Below are positions 57,787 through 63,692 of a stretch of DNA of 64,000 nt, piece by piece. The DNA lies in NCBI RefSeq assembly GCF_035610345.1, contig NZ_CP141212.1, positions 997,976 to 1,061,975 on the forward strand. Direction: 5' to 3'. Within the stretch, counting starts at the first letter, position 1. Every line of letters starts with the position of its first letter. Source of the stretch: Sinorhizobium meliloti. Lineage in GTDB: Bacteria > Pseudomonadota > Alphaproteobacteria > Rhizobiales > Rhizobiaceae. The position numbers were made by a program, and so were the translations under genes. The notes under the pieces were generated by a model that did no database searches, was not told the origin of the DNA, and worked only from the letters and a program-made list of their open reading frames with translations.

Positions 57787-57876
57787 GGAGAGGTGGCCGA
57801 GTGGTCGAAGGCGCTCCCCTGCTAAGGGAGTATACCGGAAACGGTATCGAGGGTTCGAATCCCTTCTTCTCCGCCA
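57787..57876 (+). tRNA. tRNA-Ser (GCT anticodon)
   Basis: A 90-base cloverleaf: acceptor GGAGAGG pairing with CTTCTCC (one G-U), D arm GGCCGAGTGGTCGAAGGC, anticodon stem-loop TCCCC-TGCTAA-GGGGA with GCT at 57819-57824 region, a long variable arm (TACCGGAAACGGTA) as in class II tRNAs, T arm GGGTTCGAATCCC and a genomic CCA. The long variable arm and the GCT anticodon (codons AGC/AGT) identify serine. Confidence 0.93.
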
Positions 57877-58668: not shown

Positions 58669-59606
58669 TGTTTTCAGGTTCGATTTCGACCCCGGCGTCG
58701 GGCTATCCGGTATCAGGGCGAGCAGTTCATCAAGCAGGTCGTCCGAGGTCGTACCCGGCCGGCCTGCCGGGGAATGGTCACGGAAAGCCCAGCAATTTCT
58801 CGATCTGACTGGCACCAACCAGCAGAGCCAGCTTGTCGCCCTGCTCAAGTCAGCGCAGCCGATGCAATCATAGAAAGTGTGTTCATAGGAGAGGGCGGAT
58901 TATAGGGCTATAGAGCGAACGTGGTGATCATCACCATCGGTCGCGGCCAGTTTCCCTTCGGGGCACATCTCCGTTGTCGAAAGCGACCGACGATGGCCCC
59001 GGCGCCGGGGATGCGACATGCAGCGCGTGACGGCACTCACCGTCATGGCCAATCAGCTCATTTTTTGAAACACCGGGTAAAGAGTGGAGCCGGCGCAGCC
59101 ATTCCGACTGCGCTCGTGAGTGCTTCTCGATTCGCGAATCCCTGTGCGCTGATTCTTCCGTGAATCGGCCGGGAAGCGGCCCGACTTCGATGCGCGGGCC
59201 CGGGATCGACGCGTCGATGGCTCTCGAAAAGATAGGACTTGGGCAGGGGCTTCGCCCGGTTTCGACCCCCTTTCCGGCCATTTTTTGCCCCTTTCCGACA
59301 CAGATCACAGCCCGACATCCTGCGCTAACCCCTCGTCGCTAAAGGATTTTCTTAACGGTCTGTTAATTTCCTCGGGCCGTCTGGGGCGATTTTGTGTCGT
59401 TTCAGCAACAGGGATCAGGGAAGGGCAGGGCAAAGGAGTCGATCTGGTAAGTTGGTCGTTGCGCGCCCCACCCGGTTTTGTATTTTCAACTCCGGAAGCA
59501 AGGGCGGTTGATCGTCCGACTTCTTGAACATTGGGGATGGGGCAGGGAACGCTGTCCTTCAGCAAAAAACCCAGACCCGTTTTAAACTTTTGACTGGAGG
59601 TCAGAA
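58669..59606. other. Intergenic region between hicAB and the first porin, with a CtrA-type box
   Basis: About 940 bases. Plus-strand codons at 58770-58870 (ending QLVALLKSAQPMQS) look slightly protein-like but have no start signal, so they may be a remnant. The central part (58900-59300) shows nothing recognisable. From about 59340 the sequence is AT-richer and contains the CtrA-type box at 59352-59366 and the porin promoter. Confidence 0.4.
59352..59366. promoter_or_regulatory. Full CtrA-type box upstream of the first porin
   Basis: TTAACGGTCTGTTAA is an exact TTAA-N7-TTAA. It lies 240 bases upstream of the porin start. If functional, porin expression would be tied to the cell cycle. Confidence 0.5.
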
Positions 59607-60635
59607 ATGAACATCAAGAGCCTTCTTCTCGGCTCCGCTGCTGCTCTCGCAGCAGTCTCCGGCGCCCAGGCTGCCGACGCGATCGTCGCTGCCGAGCCGG
59701 AGCCCATGGAATACGTCCGCGTCTGCGACGCTTTCGGCACGGGCTACTTCTACATTCCCGGCACGGAAACCTGCCTCAAGATCAGCGGCTTCATCCGCGT
59801 TCAGGGCGAATTCGGTCGTGACGAAGTCAACGATCGTCAGGGTTGGGGCGATGCAGGTACGTCGGACTGGGACATGTTCTCCCGCGCTTACATCGCGTTC
59901 GACGCGAAGAGCGACACCGAATACGGCACGCTCACCGGCTTCTTCGCCGCTGAATTCAACGCCGACAACGACACCGATGTCGGCGACAGCCTGATCGACG
60001 TCGACGAAGCCTACATCCAGCTCGGCGGCTTCAAGGCCGGCTTCTTCTACAGCTGGTGGGATAAGGGTCTGAACGGCGAAACCGACTCGCTCGGCAACTT
60101 CACTGAGTTCAACTCGCTCGCCTACATCTATGATGGCGGCACCTTCCAGGCCGGTATCTCGGTCGACGAACTCGAAGGTGCGAGCACCAAGCCGAACGGC
60201 GTTGGTATCACCGGTATCGTCTCCGCTACGCTCGGCGGCGTTGCTTTCGACTTGCTCGGCAGCTACGACACCGAATGGGAAGAAGGCGCTGTCCGCGGCT
60301 TGCTCTCCGCAGACCTCGGTCCGGGCACCTTCCAGATCGCCGGCATCTGGGCGTCCAACCCGAACGCTTACTGGGAAGACTCCGAATGGACCGTTGCTGC
60401 GTCTTACCGCTTCAACGCTACCGACAAGTTCCACATCACTCCGGCTGCTCAGTACTGGGGTAGCCTGCAAGACTCGAACACCAGCTTCGGCAACGATGAT
60501 CAGTGGCGCGTTGGTATCACGACCGACTACGACATCACGGAAGGTCTCGCTACCCGCTTCACGATCAACTACACCGATGCGGACAACGACGAAGACTACG
60601 TCAGCGGCTTCCTCCGCCTGCAGCGTGACTTCTAA
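59607..60635 (+). CDS. ropA1: RopA-type outer-membrane porin
   Basis: A 342-residue porin of the alphaproteobacterial porin_2 family (RopA). A signal peptide (1-22, ending GAQAADA) is followed by beta-strand-rich sequence with the family start EYVRVCDAFGTGYFYIPGTETCLKI and the C-terminal FLRLQRDF whose terminal Phe is needed for assembly. TGGAGG precedes the ATG. RopA porins allow diffusion of small solutes and serve as phage receptors in S. meliloti. The paralogue at 61848-62906 is close to identical at its N-terminus. The ropA1/ropA2 assignment follows remembered gene order only. Confidence 0.92.
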   Translation: MNIKSLLLGSAAALAAVSGAQAADAIVAAEPEPMEYVRVCDAFGTGYFYIPGTETCLKISGFIRVQGEFGRDEVNDRQGWGDAGTSDWDMFSRAYIAFDAKSDTEYGTLTGFFAAEFNADNDTDVGDSLIDVDEAYIQLGGFKAGFFYSWWDKGLNGETDSLGNFTEFNSLAYIYDGGTFQAGISVDELEGASTKPNGVGITGIVSATLGGVAFDLLGSYDTEWEEGAVRGLLSADLGPGTFQIAGIWASNPNAYWEDSEWTVAASYRFNATDKFHITPAAQYWGSLQDSNTSFGNDDQWRVGITTDYDITEGLATRFTINYTDADNDEDYVSGFLRLQRDF

Positions 60636-60662
60636 TCTGACCTGACCTCGGTCAGTGGAAGG

Positions 60663-60691
60663 AAAGCCCGGCTCAAAGCCGGGCTTTCTCT
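60663..60691 (+). terminator. Rho-independent terminator of the first porin
   Basis: Arms AAAGCCCGGCT and AGCCGGGCTTT with a CAA loop, followed by TCTCTTTT, 28 bases after the stop. Confidence 0.85.
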
Positions 60692-60741
60692 TTTAGGGAA
60701 TAGCCTTGTGAGTGCCGCGCTACTGCGGCGCGTTCCGCGAT

Positions 60742-61674
60742 TTACTTGAGGTGCCGCTCCAGGACGGGCACGCACATATCGAGGTCGTGGGAGGCGAGAT
60801 GGGCGTAGCGCATCGTCATCTCGAGCGTCTGGTGGCCAAGCCACATCTGAACCCGTCTAAGGTCGATCCCGCCTCTGACCAGGCGTGAGGCGCAGGTATG
60901 CCGCAGGATGTGCGGAACGACGTCTTCTTCGTCACCGAGGCGCGCATCCACCTTTGCAGCGTTCCAGACGGCGCGATACTTCTGCTGATCAATTCTCGAA
61001 AAGGGCCCCGGGGCTCTGTCGGCACATTTCTTCAGGGCGTCCTTTGCCCTCAAGGTGAGCGGGACCGTGCGGCTGCGGCCCGACTTGGTGACCCAGAATG
61101 TCGCCCGGCCCTCATGGATGTCGTTCCATTTGAGAGCGATGGCCTCGCCCAGGCGCGCACCCGTATCCACCAGGAATATCGAGAGATAAAGGTATAGTTC
61201 AGACCGGCTCGCGATCTCCCGGAAGAGCAGTTCCTCCTCGTCTGCCTCCAGAAAGCGCAGGCGCCCCGCCTTCTCCTTCTGGCGCTTGAACTCCGGTAGA
61301 TTGTGTACATCCCCCATCTTGTACGCTTTCCGCAGCAGCTTTCGCAGCGCCGCCATCTTCCGGTTGATGGTCGCGTTGCTGTTGCCGCGCTTTCGCAGCG
61401 CACCGATGAGGCCGTCGAGCATCTCCTGCGAGAAGACGGAGAAACGCTTGCCGAGCAGAATCTCGTCCAGCTCTCCGACGAAGGCCTTCACATTGTATTT
61501 GTGCTTGCCTTCGTCCCACAGGATGTCGGCATAGCGCTGAAGCAATTCGGCGAGCGTGGCTTCCTTCACCACTCCCATGGGACCTTGCCGGCCGAAGCTA
61601 TAATTGACCTCGTATCCGGACCCCATTCCAGGGAATCCAAGGTCACTCGCTCGTTTTTCAGCGTCCGACGTCAC
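60742..61674 (-). CDS. Tyrosine recombinase / phage-type integrase
   Basis: A 310-residue recombinase with an N-terminal SAM-like core-binding domain (about 25-115) and a C-terminal catalytic domain with the family residues: Arg in DTGARLGEAIALKW, His-x2-Arg in HILRHTCASRL, His in WLGHQTLEMT and the nucleophile Tyr in MRYAHLASHD. GTG start at 61674 with GGGAGG upstream. No excisionase or other phage gene is nearby and no att duplication was seen, so it may be a remnant or an XerC/D-like orphan. It lies between two porin genes that point towards each other. Confidence 0.9.
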   Translation of the reverse strand: MTSDAEKRASDLGFPGMGSGYEVNYSFGRQGPMGVVKEATLAELLQRYADILWDEGKHKYNVKAFVGELDEILLGKRFSVFSQEMLDGLIGALRKRGNSNATINRKMAALRKLLRKAYKMGDVHNLPEFKRQKEKAGRLRFLEADEEELLFREIASRSELYLYLSIFLVDTGARLGEAIALKWNDIHEGRATFWVTKSGRSRTVPLTLRAKDALKKCADRAPGPFSRIDQQKYRAVWNAAKVDARLGDEEDVVPHILRHTCASRLVRGGIDLRRVQMWLGHQTLEMTMRYAHLASHDLDMCVPVLERHLK

Positions 61675-61847
61675 GTTTGCCGTTTCCTCCCCATTCTCCG
61701 TGAACGAGCCAAGAAACCACTGACCATCAAGTCAGTGCTTATAGTCAAACAATCTCAACGCCTTGGCGGCGCACATTCGTTGCAGAACAGCAACAGCCCG
61801 CAACTCAATGTTGGGTTGCGGGCTTTTTTGAACCTGACTAGGTCAGA
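61675..61847. ncRNA. Candidate small RNA ending in a plus-strand terminator
   Basis: The 173 bases between the integrase start and the second porin stop contain a strong hairpin (AGCCCGCAAC at 61795-61804 and GTTGCGGGCT at 61815-61824) followed on the plus strand by TTTTTT. No plus-strand gene precedes it, so it may terminate a small plus-strand transcript starting around 61690-61740. It also could serve as a weaker terminator for the minus-strand porin. Confidence 0.35.
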
Positions 61848-62906
61848 TTAGAAGTCCCGCTGCAGGCGGAGGAAGCCGCTGACAGCGTCGGGCTTGTTGC
61901 TTGCATCCGTGTAGTTGATGGCAAAGCGCGAGGCGAGACCATCGGTGATCTTGTAGTCGGCAGTGACACCGACGCGCCACTGTTCTTCGCTCGAGTCGAA
62001 GCCACCAGCACCGTTGTTCAGAGCGTCCCAGTATTGTGCGCCCGGGGTGATTGCGAGCTTTTCGGAAGCGTTGAAGCGGTACGACGCAGCAACGGTCCAC
62101 TCCGAGTCAGCCCAGTAAGCGTTCGGGTCGGATGCCCAGATGCCGGCGATCTGGAATGTACCCGGACCGGCATCGGCCGAAAGCAGTGCGCGGATCGCGC
62201 CTTCTTCGTACTCGGTGTCGTAGCCGCCGAGCAAGTCGAAGCTTACACCACCGACCGAAGCGGAAACGATACCTTCAACACCGATGCCGTTAGGCTTGGT
62301 CGAGGTGCCTTCAAGTTCATCGATCGCAACACCAGCCTGGAACGTCCCGCCGTCATACATGTAGGCGATCGAGTTGAATTCCGTGTTCTCGCCGATCGAG
62401 TCGGTTTCGCCGTTCAGACCCTTATCCCACCAGCTGTAGAAGAAGCCGGCCTTGAAGCCGCCGAGCTGGATGTAGGCTTCGTCGACGTCGATGAAGCTGT
62501 CGCCTTCGTCGGTGTCGTTGTCGGCGTTGAACTCAGCGGCGAAGAAGCCGGTGAGCGTGCCGTATTCGGTGTCGCTCTTCGAGTCGAACGCGATGTAAGC
62601 GCGGGAGAACATGTCCCAATCGGAAGTGCCGCCAACATAGTCTTTCCGCGGCTTGTCAAGCGTACCCCAGTCCGAACGGTCGTTAACTTCGTCGCGGCCG
62701 AATTCGCCCTGAACGCGGATGAAGCCGCTGATCTTGAGGCAGGTTTCCGTGCCGGGGATGTAGAAGTAGCCCGTGCCGAAAGCGTCGCAGACGCGGACGT
62801 ATTCCATGGGCTCCGGCTCGGCAGCGACGATCGCGTCGGCAGCCTGGGCGCCGGAGACTGCTGCGAGAGCAGCAGAGGAGCCGAGAAGAAGGCTCTTGAT
62901 GTTCAT
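61848..62906 (-). CDS. ropA2: RopA-type outer-membrane porin, second copy
   Basis: A 352-residue porin, paralogue of the gene at 59607-60635. The first 55 residues differ at one position (SSAALAA in place of SAAALAA), the C-terminus is again FLRLQRDF. An insertion of about nine residues (LDKPRKDYVGG region, residues 84-92) in an early extracellular loop and scattered changes in the last third distinguish it. The ATG at 62906 follows GGAGGTCAGAA. Convergent with the other copy, with the recombinase gene in between. Confidence 0.92.
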   Translation of the reverse strand: MNIKSLLLGSSAALAAVSGAQAADAIVAAEPEPMEYVRVCDAFGTGYFYIPGTETCLKISGFIRVQGEFGRDEVNDRSDWGTLDKPRKDYVGGTSDWDMFSRAYIAFDSKSDTEYGTLTGFFAAEFNADNDTDEGDSFIDVDEAYIQLGGFKAGFFYSWWDKGLNGETDSIGENTEFNSIAYMYDGGTFQAGVAIDELEGTSTKPNGIGVEGIVSASVGGVSFDLLGGYDTEYEEGAIRALLSADAGPGTFQIAGIWASDPNAYWADSEWTVAASYRFNASEKLAITPGAQYWDALNNGAGGFDSSEEQWRVGVTADYKITDGLASRFAINYTDASNKPDAVSGFLRLQRDF

Positions 62907-63278
62907 TTCTGACCTCCAGTCAGTCGTGGGAAAGAAATCCTATGATTGGGCGGTCCGGCGAGGACAGCACTGCCACCGTCTTTCCTTCAATTTGGGAGAA
63001 GGTGAGGGGAGGCGCGTCGCGTTCAAATAGAACTTCATGCCACGCGCTTTCGGGCCTGTTGAGATTCGGCCACCCGCCGCCGCTTGTTCGATCGCCTCAT
63101 CCCTGTGCCCGTCACAGGGATGAGAGCAGCGCCGCGTCTGCGGCGCGGGAAGCGTTCTTTCAGCCCAAGGACTTGGCCTGGCTGGATTCCTGTGACAAGC
63201 ACAGTAATGAGGGACCGGGATGTGCGGCTACTACAACTTCCGTTGCGAATATGCGAGGGAACGGTCAACCTGTCACGC

Positions 63279-63405
63279 AATGAAGGTTACGTCTACATTC
63301 TCGCGTCCAAACGAAGCGGGACGTGGTATACGGGCGTGACTTGGGCCCTCCGCGCCGCCTCGCTATCTTCACGGTTTATGAAACGCGCCGAGGACCGCAC
63401 CCTCT
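63279..63405 (+). pseudogene. GIY-YIG endonuclease remnant, copy 1 (frameshifted)
   Basis: The frame encodes NEGYVYILASKRSGTWYTGVT, the start of a UPF0213/GIY-YIG nuclease domain, with no in-frame start codon. A one-base deletion relative to copy 2 just after GGCGTGAC shifts the frame, so it is not functional. About 35 residues of homologous sequence remain. Confidence 0.7.
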
Positions 63406-63530: not shown

Positions 63531-63692
63531 ATGGAAGGTTACGTCTACATTCTCGCATCGAAGCGAAGCGGTACGCTGTACGCGGGCGTGACCCGGAACC
63601 TGCCGTGCCGCCTCGCTATCTTCACGGTTTATGAAACGCGCCGAGAGGTCGCACCCTCTCTACCTCATCCCTGTGACGAGCACAAGGGATGA
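63531..63692 (+). pseudogene. GIY-YIG endonuclease remnant, copy 2 (truncated)
   Basis: An ORF of 53 codons starting MEGYVYILASKRSGTLYAGV keeps the GIY-YIG N-terminal signature and an arginine, then after RLAIFTVYETRREV runs into repeat sequence and stops. The catalytic glutamate and the remainder of the usual 90-100 residue domain are missing, so it is a broken gene inside the mosaic element. Confidence 0.7.

Follow-up and report, generated by a model that had tools for sequence, protein, structure and literature searches.

A recombinase-associated pair of inverted porin genes in Sinorhizobium meliloti as a probable two-state porin switch of the Rhizobiaceae

RopA-type porins are major outer-membrane proteins of rhizobia. 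Elsewhere, Salmonella Hin/fljBA, Dichelobacter nodosus omp1, and Campylobacter fetus sap each place alternative surface-protein genes under one promoter, with conserved 5′ ends as exchange points. Here, we describe a locus that appears to share this plan in a stretch of 64,000 nucleotides (nt) of Sinorhizobium meliloti DNA (assembly GCF_035610345.1, contig NZ_CP141212.1, positions 997,976 to 1,061,975, forward strand; hereafter "the window"), where two porin genes, A and B, lie in opposite orientation around a tyrosine recombinase gene. Enzyme, sites, hosts, and protein family differ from those of the three described systems: Hin, for example, is a serine recombinase, and the porin switch proposed here has two topologies. 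Brucella omp2a and omp2b resemble porins A and B in being two related porins in inverted orientation, and gene conversion has been reported for them; we know of no recombinase switch at that locus.

The fimS element with FimB/FimE and upaE of uropathogenic Escherichia coli (PMC6083910) are like the porin locus in combining a nearby tyrosine recombinase with inverted sites; in those systems the orientation of a short promoter segment sets expression, as the orientation of the porin locus may do. The porin locus differs in that its site overlaps the ribosome-binding site, its choice would be between two alternative porins instead of on and off, its segment often carries a transfer RNA (tRNA) gene, and its recombinase follows one of the porins. 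In Bacteroides, with unrelated hosts and proteins, invertible promoters vary outer-membrane proteins or capsules, and inversion has in one case been tied to phage persistence (PMC4747536 and PMC8375218). Our literature search, which covered mainly open literature, found no description of a recombinase-porin switch in Rhizobiaceae. The parts (porins and a tyrosine recombinase) are ordinary and the arrangement, which is widespread, would work like known promoter-inversion switches; no account of such a switch across Rhizobiaceae, with a ribosome-binding site as the recombination site and two topologies, was met in that search.

Based on comparison of sequences, we propose, with a probability of roughly 0.8, that the locus is a site-specific two-state switch between alternative porins which is also able to move porin cassettes. 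A dedicated tyrosine recombinase would act on two inverted dyads that overlap the Shine-Dalgarno sequences of the two porin genes, and recombination would invert the DNA between these sites. Either porin could in this way be placed behind the single leader, and the one not so placed would be silent. The usual layout among relatives has the leader between divergent porins, where it would itself invert; in Sinorhizobium, including the window, the leader would stay fixed outside and the segment holding both porins and the recombinase would turn. Porin-recombinase modules could also be moved by this reaction. The features in the window are as follows.

57787-57876, + strand: tRNA-Ser(GCT), outside the two sites in the window
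59120-59587, + strand: conserved leader, presumed promoter and 5′ untranslated region, with the ON porin behind it; alignment with S. meliloti Ak57 (90.6%) continues into the porin
59588-59606, + strand: putative recombination site 1, dyad TTTTGAC-TGGAG-GTCAGAA overlapping the porin A Shine-Dalgarno sequence; pattern match
59607-60635, + strand: porin A, Porin_2, RopA type, 342 aa, in the ON position; Porin_2 E 1e-110
60742-61674, - strand: tyrosine recombinase with a GTG start, 310 aa; Phage_integrase (PF00589) E 8e-28
61795-61824, no strand assigned: hairpin or terminator-like stem between recombinase and porin B, the best of the stems found
61848-62906, - strand: porin B, Porin_2, 352 aa, on the strand of the recombinase, in the off position; Porin_2 E 2e-106
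62907-62925, - strand: putative recombination site 2, dyad GACTGAC-TGGAG-GTCAGAA, inverted relative to site 1; pattern match

The initial annotation, made from the letters alone, had reported an inverted porin pair flanking a tyrosine recombinase at 59607-62906, and open reading frames, Pfam matches, and alignment bear this out. The porins converge around the recombinase, with 1.2 kb between their stop codons, and match each other in three inverted arms: 59591-59848 with 62665-62922 (258 nt, 96%), 59856-60459 with 62027-62630 (604 nt, 85%), and 60494-60643 with 61840-61989 (150 nt, 81%). A search of the window genome with porin A returned only these two porins at E ≤ 0.001. The motif TTCTAATCTGACCT, which that annotation placed at both porin 3′ ends, is indeed there and is shared by many relatives. 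Its candidate RNA between the genes found no Rfam match at the gathering threshold, and only terminator-like stems were seen in that interval.

Both porins begin at a dyad of 19 nt that the first account of the locus lacked. Its consensus, TTCTGAC-TGGAG-GTCAGAA, includes the Shine-Dalgarno sequence GGAGG. Allowing up to three mismatches, it occurs twice in the window, where 0.01 matches are expected, and twice, inverted, in the 6.6-Mb genome, in which a reversed control pattern has no match. Upstream of the dyad, porins A and B have no visible similarity: a long conserved leader precedes A, and variable, unrelated DNA precedes B. Copies carrying the leader motif CCCAGACCC were classed as ON, so those letters are conserved by construction, as are most letters of the core, which are fixed by the pattern used to collect the sites; porin starts were also listed by a profile search without the core pattern. 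The consensus of 121 ON copies remains conserved well past CCCAGACCC, where OFF copies hold close to zero information. Information in the OFF copies is about zero 5′ of the dyad and climbs at the dyad, and positions 2 and 3 of their dyad arms form pairs in 72% and 73% of cases versus 50% and 49% for shuffled loci, a level reached in 0 of 500 shuffles (relatedness uncorrected). The leader consensus contains a possible TTGaac-N16-TAtttT pair, which is degenerate in the window.

The recombinase belongs to Phage_integrase (PF00589), and its residues R174, K197, H255, R258, H281, and Y290, which we take to be the catalytic R-K-H-R-H/W-Y set, are invariant in 15 aligned sequences. It falls far short of the NCBIfam equivalog cut-offs for XerC (87.9 vs 335.15 bits), XerD (87.3 vs 329.6), and XerA (94.4 vs 220). 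The window copy is identical to that of S. meliloti 4H41 and 99.7% identical to those of Sinorhizobium sp. K101, C101, and M103. C101 and M103 (L017, L018), both very close to the window, each differ from K101 by a one-base length change in one porin of the pair, a real frameshift or a sequencing error. At E ≤ 1e-30, 13 of 33 Sinorhizobium-group genomes carry the recombinase, one of them (G007) as a fragment only; there, the fragment lies beside a truncated porin (L034 9818-10737), a decaying locus. Relatives were found in 124 of 394 family genomes (E ≤ 1e-80) and 39 of 109 genera, a lower bound, as six more genomes have relatives of 44-47% identity just outside the E limit. At the order level, 10 of 397 genomes have the gene (E ≤ 1e-60), nine of them from the same family. 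Among the best 80 of 343 matches, named relatives include those of Sinorhizobium, Rhizobium, Neorhizobium, Agrobacterium, Ciceribacter, Peteryoungia, Aminobacter, Mesorhizobium, Nitratireductor, Phyllobacterium, and environmental Brucella/Ochrobactrum. We annotated 95 regions (13 from the Sinorhizobium group, 80 of 118 other family matches, and two plasmid-collection records), and in 94 the recombinase is immediately preceded by a Porin_2 reading frame or fragment on its own strand; the exception, L119, stops 566 bp upstream.

The presence of the recombinase is closely linked to the arrangement of the sites. All 13 recombinase-positive Sinorhizobium-group genomes, including G007 with its fragment, have one site per strand, compared with none of the 20 recombinase-negative ones, of which 19 have a single site and one, 70% complete, has no site. 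Among genomes listed with two nearby sites, the pair is inverted in 28 of 28 positives and tandem in 10 of 10 negatives. These ten (G220, G323, G393, G249, G379, G302, G201, G260, G128, and G123) have their sites 1.3-1.7 kb apart; such tandem pairs may be frozen, or prone to deletion. Across the whole sample, both strands carry sites in 24 genomes scored as negative (no match at E ≤ 1e-80). In 11 of them, the sites lie far apart or on different contigs, and 13 have inverted pairs within 5 kb. Six of the 13 (G051, G116, G152, G166, G194, and G411) carry a recombinase relative of 44-47% identity between sites 3.5-4.5 kb apart, and three (G241, G399, and G403) have recombinase pieces beside the pair; the other four are considered below. 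Two of the six, G194 and G411, have two recombinase genes on opposite strands between one inverted site pair, 4.3-4.5 kb apart.

We examined 175 loci, comprising the 95 regions and 80 named loci with genomes partly shared. State counts omit the 35 loci without exactly two sites (contig ends, or missing or extra sites; Ak57 has three and L184 four). The remaining 140 divide into 118 divergent and 22 convergent loci; outside Sinorhizobium, the porins are mostly divergent, with the leader between the sites. Exactly one leader was found by the first pattern in 138 of the 140, and the other two (L213 and L225) show a leader variant, again on one side only. Removing identical recombinases left 121 distinct loci: 70 divergent with the recombinase-distal porin ON (P1-ON), 34 divergent with the recombinase-linked porin ON (R-ON), two unassigned by the first pattern, and 15 convergent. 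Both states occur under the same genus names. Aminobacter anthyllidis (L189) is P1-ON and four other Aminobacter loci (L190, L196, L203, and L210) are R-ON; among Mesorhizobium-named records, L194, L223, L242, and L246 are P1-ON and L224, L233, L236, L238, L241, L248, L250, L253, and L255 are R-ON. The closest pair in opposite states has a recombinase identity of 94.2%, and no such pair within one species was found among the loci compared.

The second porin is seldom degraded. Of 119 loci, 114 keep an intact off porin (in the others three are short and two cut by contig ends), and the ON porin is likewise intact in 114 (one short, four cut). Within a locus, the bodies of the two have a median identity of 0.68 (range 0.33-1.0; 99 divergent loci). 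An intact but differing off copy is what would be expected of alternatives used now and then. In 80 of 104 divergent relatives (e.g. L100, L103, L107, L113, and L127), the invertible segment contains a tRNA-Ser(GCT) gene, which points away from the ON porin in 75 and toward it in five. In the window genome, this tRNA finds only itself as an identical match, with the next best at 81%; the gene may be unique in the genome, and it would flip with the leader in those relatives that have it inside.

Both orientations of the invertible segment occur in nature, between species. The 16 Sinorhizobium-group chromosomal loci besides Ak57 are oriented alike relative to LTG-dapA-smpB (and hisC where seen). 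S. meliloti Ak57 differs, its porin-recombinase-porin block running the opposite way from dyad to dyad (L024 8336-11648 vs L019 12117-8759, 91%); this comparison is with other species, and the dapA-smpB flank is about 93% identical to both loci compared. Elsewhere, site-to-site segments in opposite states align in reverse complement in five genus groups: g51 (L100 vs six others), g73 (L113 and L127), g67 (L092 and L144), g75 (L155 vs three), and g50 (L114 vs L108 and L116, mixed vs L106 and L107). Orientation was scored across all loci after trimming 80 bp from each end, with pairs that are not independent. At a recombinase identity of at least 0.85, same-state pairs were forward in 97 cases, reverse in 16, and tied in 3, and opposite-state pairs were reverse in 29, forward in 8, and tied in 4; orientation thus matches state in 126 of 157 pairs, with 24 contradicting and 7 tied. 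At lower identity, agreement and contradiction numbered 306 and 50 (0.75-0.85) and 2657 and 293 (below 0.75).

These comparisons revise the mechanism put forward in the initial annotation, which had suggested inversion of the central segment with exchange of the porin 3′ halves. Comparison between species supports inversion but not an exchange of 3′ halves: the inversions observed run dyad to dyad, upstream of the ATG codons. For the same reason, TTCTAATCTGACCT was rejected as the exchange point, common as the motif is. The predicted chimeric porins give way to a swap of the whole porin behind the leader. Porin bodies mostly hold to their role: that of the nearest body in another genome (at least 80% identity) agrees in 86 of 104 cases, and the remaining 18 leave some room for occasional exchange. 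Orientation, which that annotation had advised comparing across strains, is not uniform between species, as seen in the inverted Ak57 and in the 34 versus 70 of 104 distinct divergent loci.

Porin-recombinase modules also occur on their own. Lone modules, for which the surrounding sequence examined holds no second site, are found on other replicons in four separate settings: pSymA-type replicons of S. meliloti and S. medicae, p1 and pA of E. adhaerens, and pT173e of E. canadensis. Their left end reads GATTTTGTC (GATTTTGAC in L258) and then TGGAGGTCAGAA, and their right end, where visible (L020, L021, L257, L258, and L261), reads TTCTGAC and then TAGCAGTCA. These ends are att-like hybrids of the porin dyad and other sequence. 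The module behind the Ak57 leader is 98.8% identical to the pSymA R28 module. The vacant target implied by the ends was found in 0 of 33 genomes at up to one mismatch, and no clean empty locus was found. Ak57 itself (L019 6442-10933) has two porin-recombinase modules in tandem facing a third porin, the first being near-identical to the pSymA module.

Several observations weigh against the proposed switch. A promoter scan gave no consensus sigma-70 site. All 17 recombinase-less Sinorhizobium-group porins examined (from 20 such genomes) show equal conservation of leader and core, which led us to reject site conservation as proof of site function. Within loci, the porin 5′ ends are 93-99% identical over about 180 nt and look homogenised, with third positions 90-96% identical compared with 53-71% between distant loci; this shows that exchange goes beyond the site, with homologous recombination a possible contributor. 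Four genomes (G060, G158, G239, and G292) have an inverted pair 0.7-0.9 kb apart with no recombinase detected beside it, which may reflect either enzyme loss or inversion-capable pairs without the enzyme. These exceptions refute a strict family-wide rule that inverted pairs occur only with the recombinase and slightly lower our confidence in the switch; judged from these genomes, the link is strong, not strict. All 15 distinct convergent two-site loci have the recombinase-distal porin ON, and five close strains (G000, G014, K101, C101, and M103) do not differ in state; rarity of switching, or strong selection on it, may account for this. We counted at least 15 state changes on a recombinase tree built with FastTree, versus 24-33 in 200 shuffles (mean 28.9). 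The state tracks phylogeny more than expected by chance, suggesting a switch that moves and a state that has memory. The 24 contradicting pairs at or above 0.85, together with 343 of 3301 pairs below it, break the orientation rule; the 24 score at least 172 bits both ways, and their segments therefore look internally rearranged. Finally, draft assemblies can misorient DNA between inverted repeats of about 200 nt.

Some of these points would suit other explanations. If RecA-type homologous recombination between the porin 5′ ends caused the inversions and the recombinase were incidental cargo, the homogenised ends, which indicate that homologous exchange or conversion does occur, and the four pairs lacking a recombinase would be accommodated. 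We consider this improbable given how inverted pairs track the recombinase, both in the Sinorhizobium group (13 of 13 vs 0 of 20) and among the genomes listed (28 of 28 positives inverted, 10 of 10 negatives tandem), and given that the module ends on other replicons are dyad hybrids without surrounding homology. The idea that orientation is an assembly artefact, assigned arbitrarily between inverted repeats, draws on the several draft contigs that end near the porin repeat. Yet states follow phylogeny (15 changes vs 24-33 when shuffled), multi-megabase contigs disagree in state as well, as in L100 (5.0 Mb) and L090 (5.2 Mb) of one genus, and the complete Ak57 record is inverted, which makes an artefact highly implausible.

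The modules could also be read as mobile porin-recombinase cassettes that insert at porin starts, with inversion a rare side effect and no regulatory role. Lone modules in four contexts and the module at the Ak57 porin locus, 98.8% identical to that of pSymA R28, are in keeping with such mobility. At the main locus, however, both topologies have retained the recombinase across 39 of 109 genera, two-site loci have exactly one leader, and the off porin is usually intact; the predicted vacant site did not turn up in any of the 33 genomes at up to one mismatch. We regard this explanation as unlikely. The two-state switch remains our preferred reading; in it, this recombinase would perform the inversion, which would happen within clones, and the off porin would be untranscribed, with orientation setting transcription. 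We are evenly divided on a broader proposal, in which an old, family-wide Rhizobiaceae porin switch, using the major-porin ribosome-binding site as its site in two topologies, alternates two resident porins behind one leader and doubles as a capture device. Incoming porin-recombinase modules would insert at that site, as in Ak57, and a foreign porin would be expressed at once from the resident leader. In the rarer R-ON state, read-through into the recombinase gene may promote a switch back.

Beyond the locus itself, a short coding-like repeat with two copies (63282-63349 and 63534-63601), reading EGYVYILASKRSGT.., lies near porin B amid other short repeats. It resembles the start of a GIY-YIG nuclease.

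The benefit of switching would presumably lie in phage or other surface selection. The initial annotation had already connected porin shuffling with phage resistance, and such a connection may exist. According to PMC10132094, RopA1 serves as receptor for a set of S. meliloti phages, and in an Agrobacterium clone with resistance to phage OLIVR5 a recombination between ropA1 and ropA2 went together with loss of adsorption; a title in its reference list terms RopA1 essential. These reports fit a single expressed porin without proving it.

If the proposed switch is correct, it would explain why so many genera keep an intact second porin that apparently has no leader. Phage resistance and surface variation would then be reversible, and the reading of porin mutants and of phage-receptor work in rhizobia would change. 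The ON or off state can be read from any long-read genome, which makes the idea directly testable.

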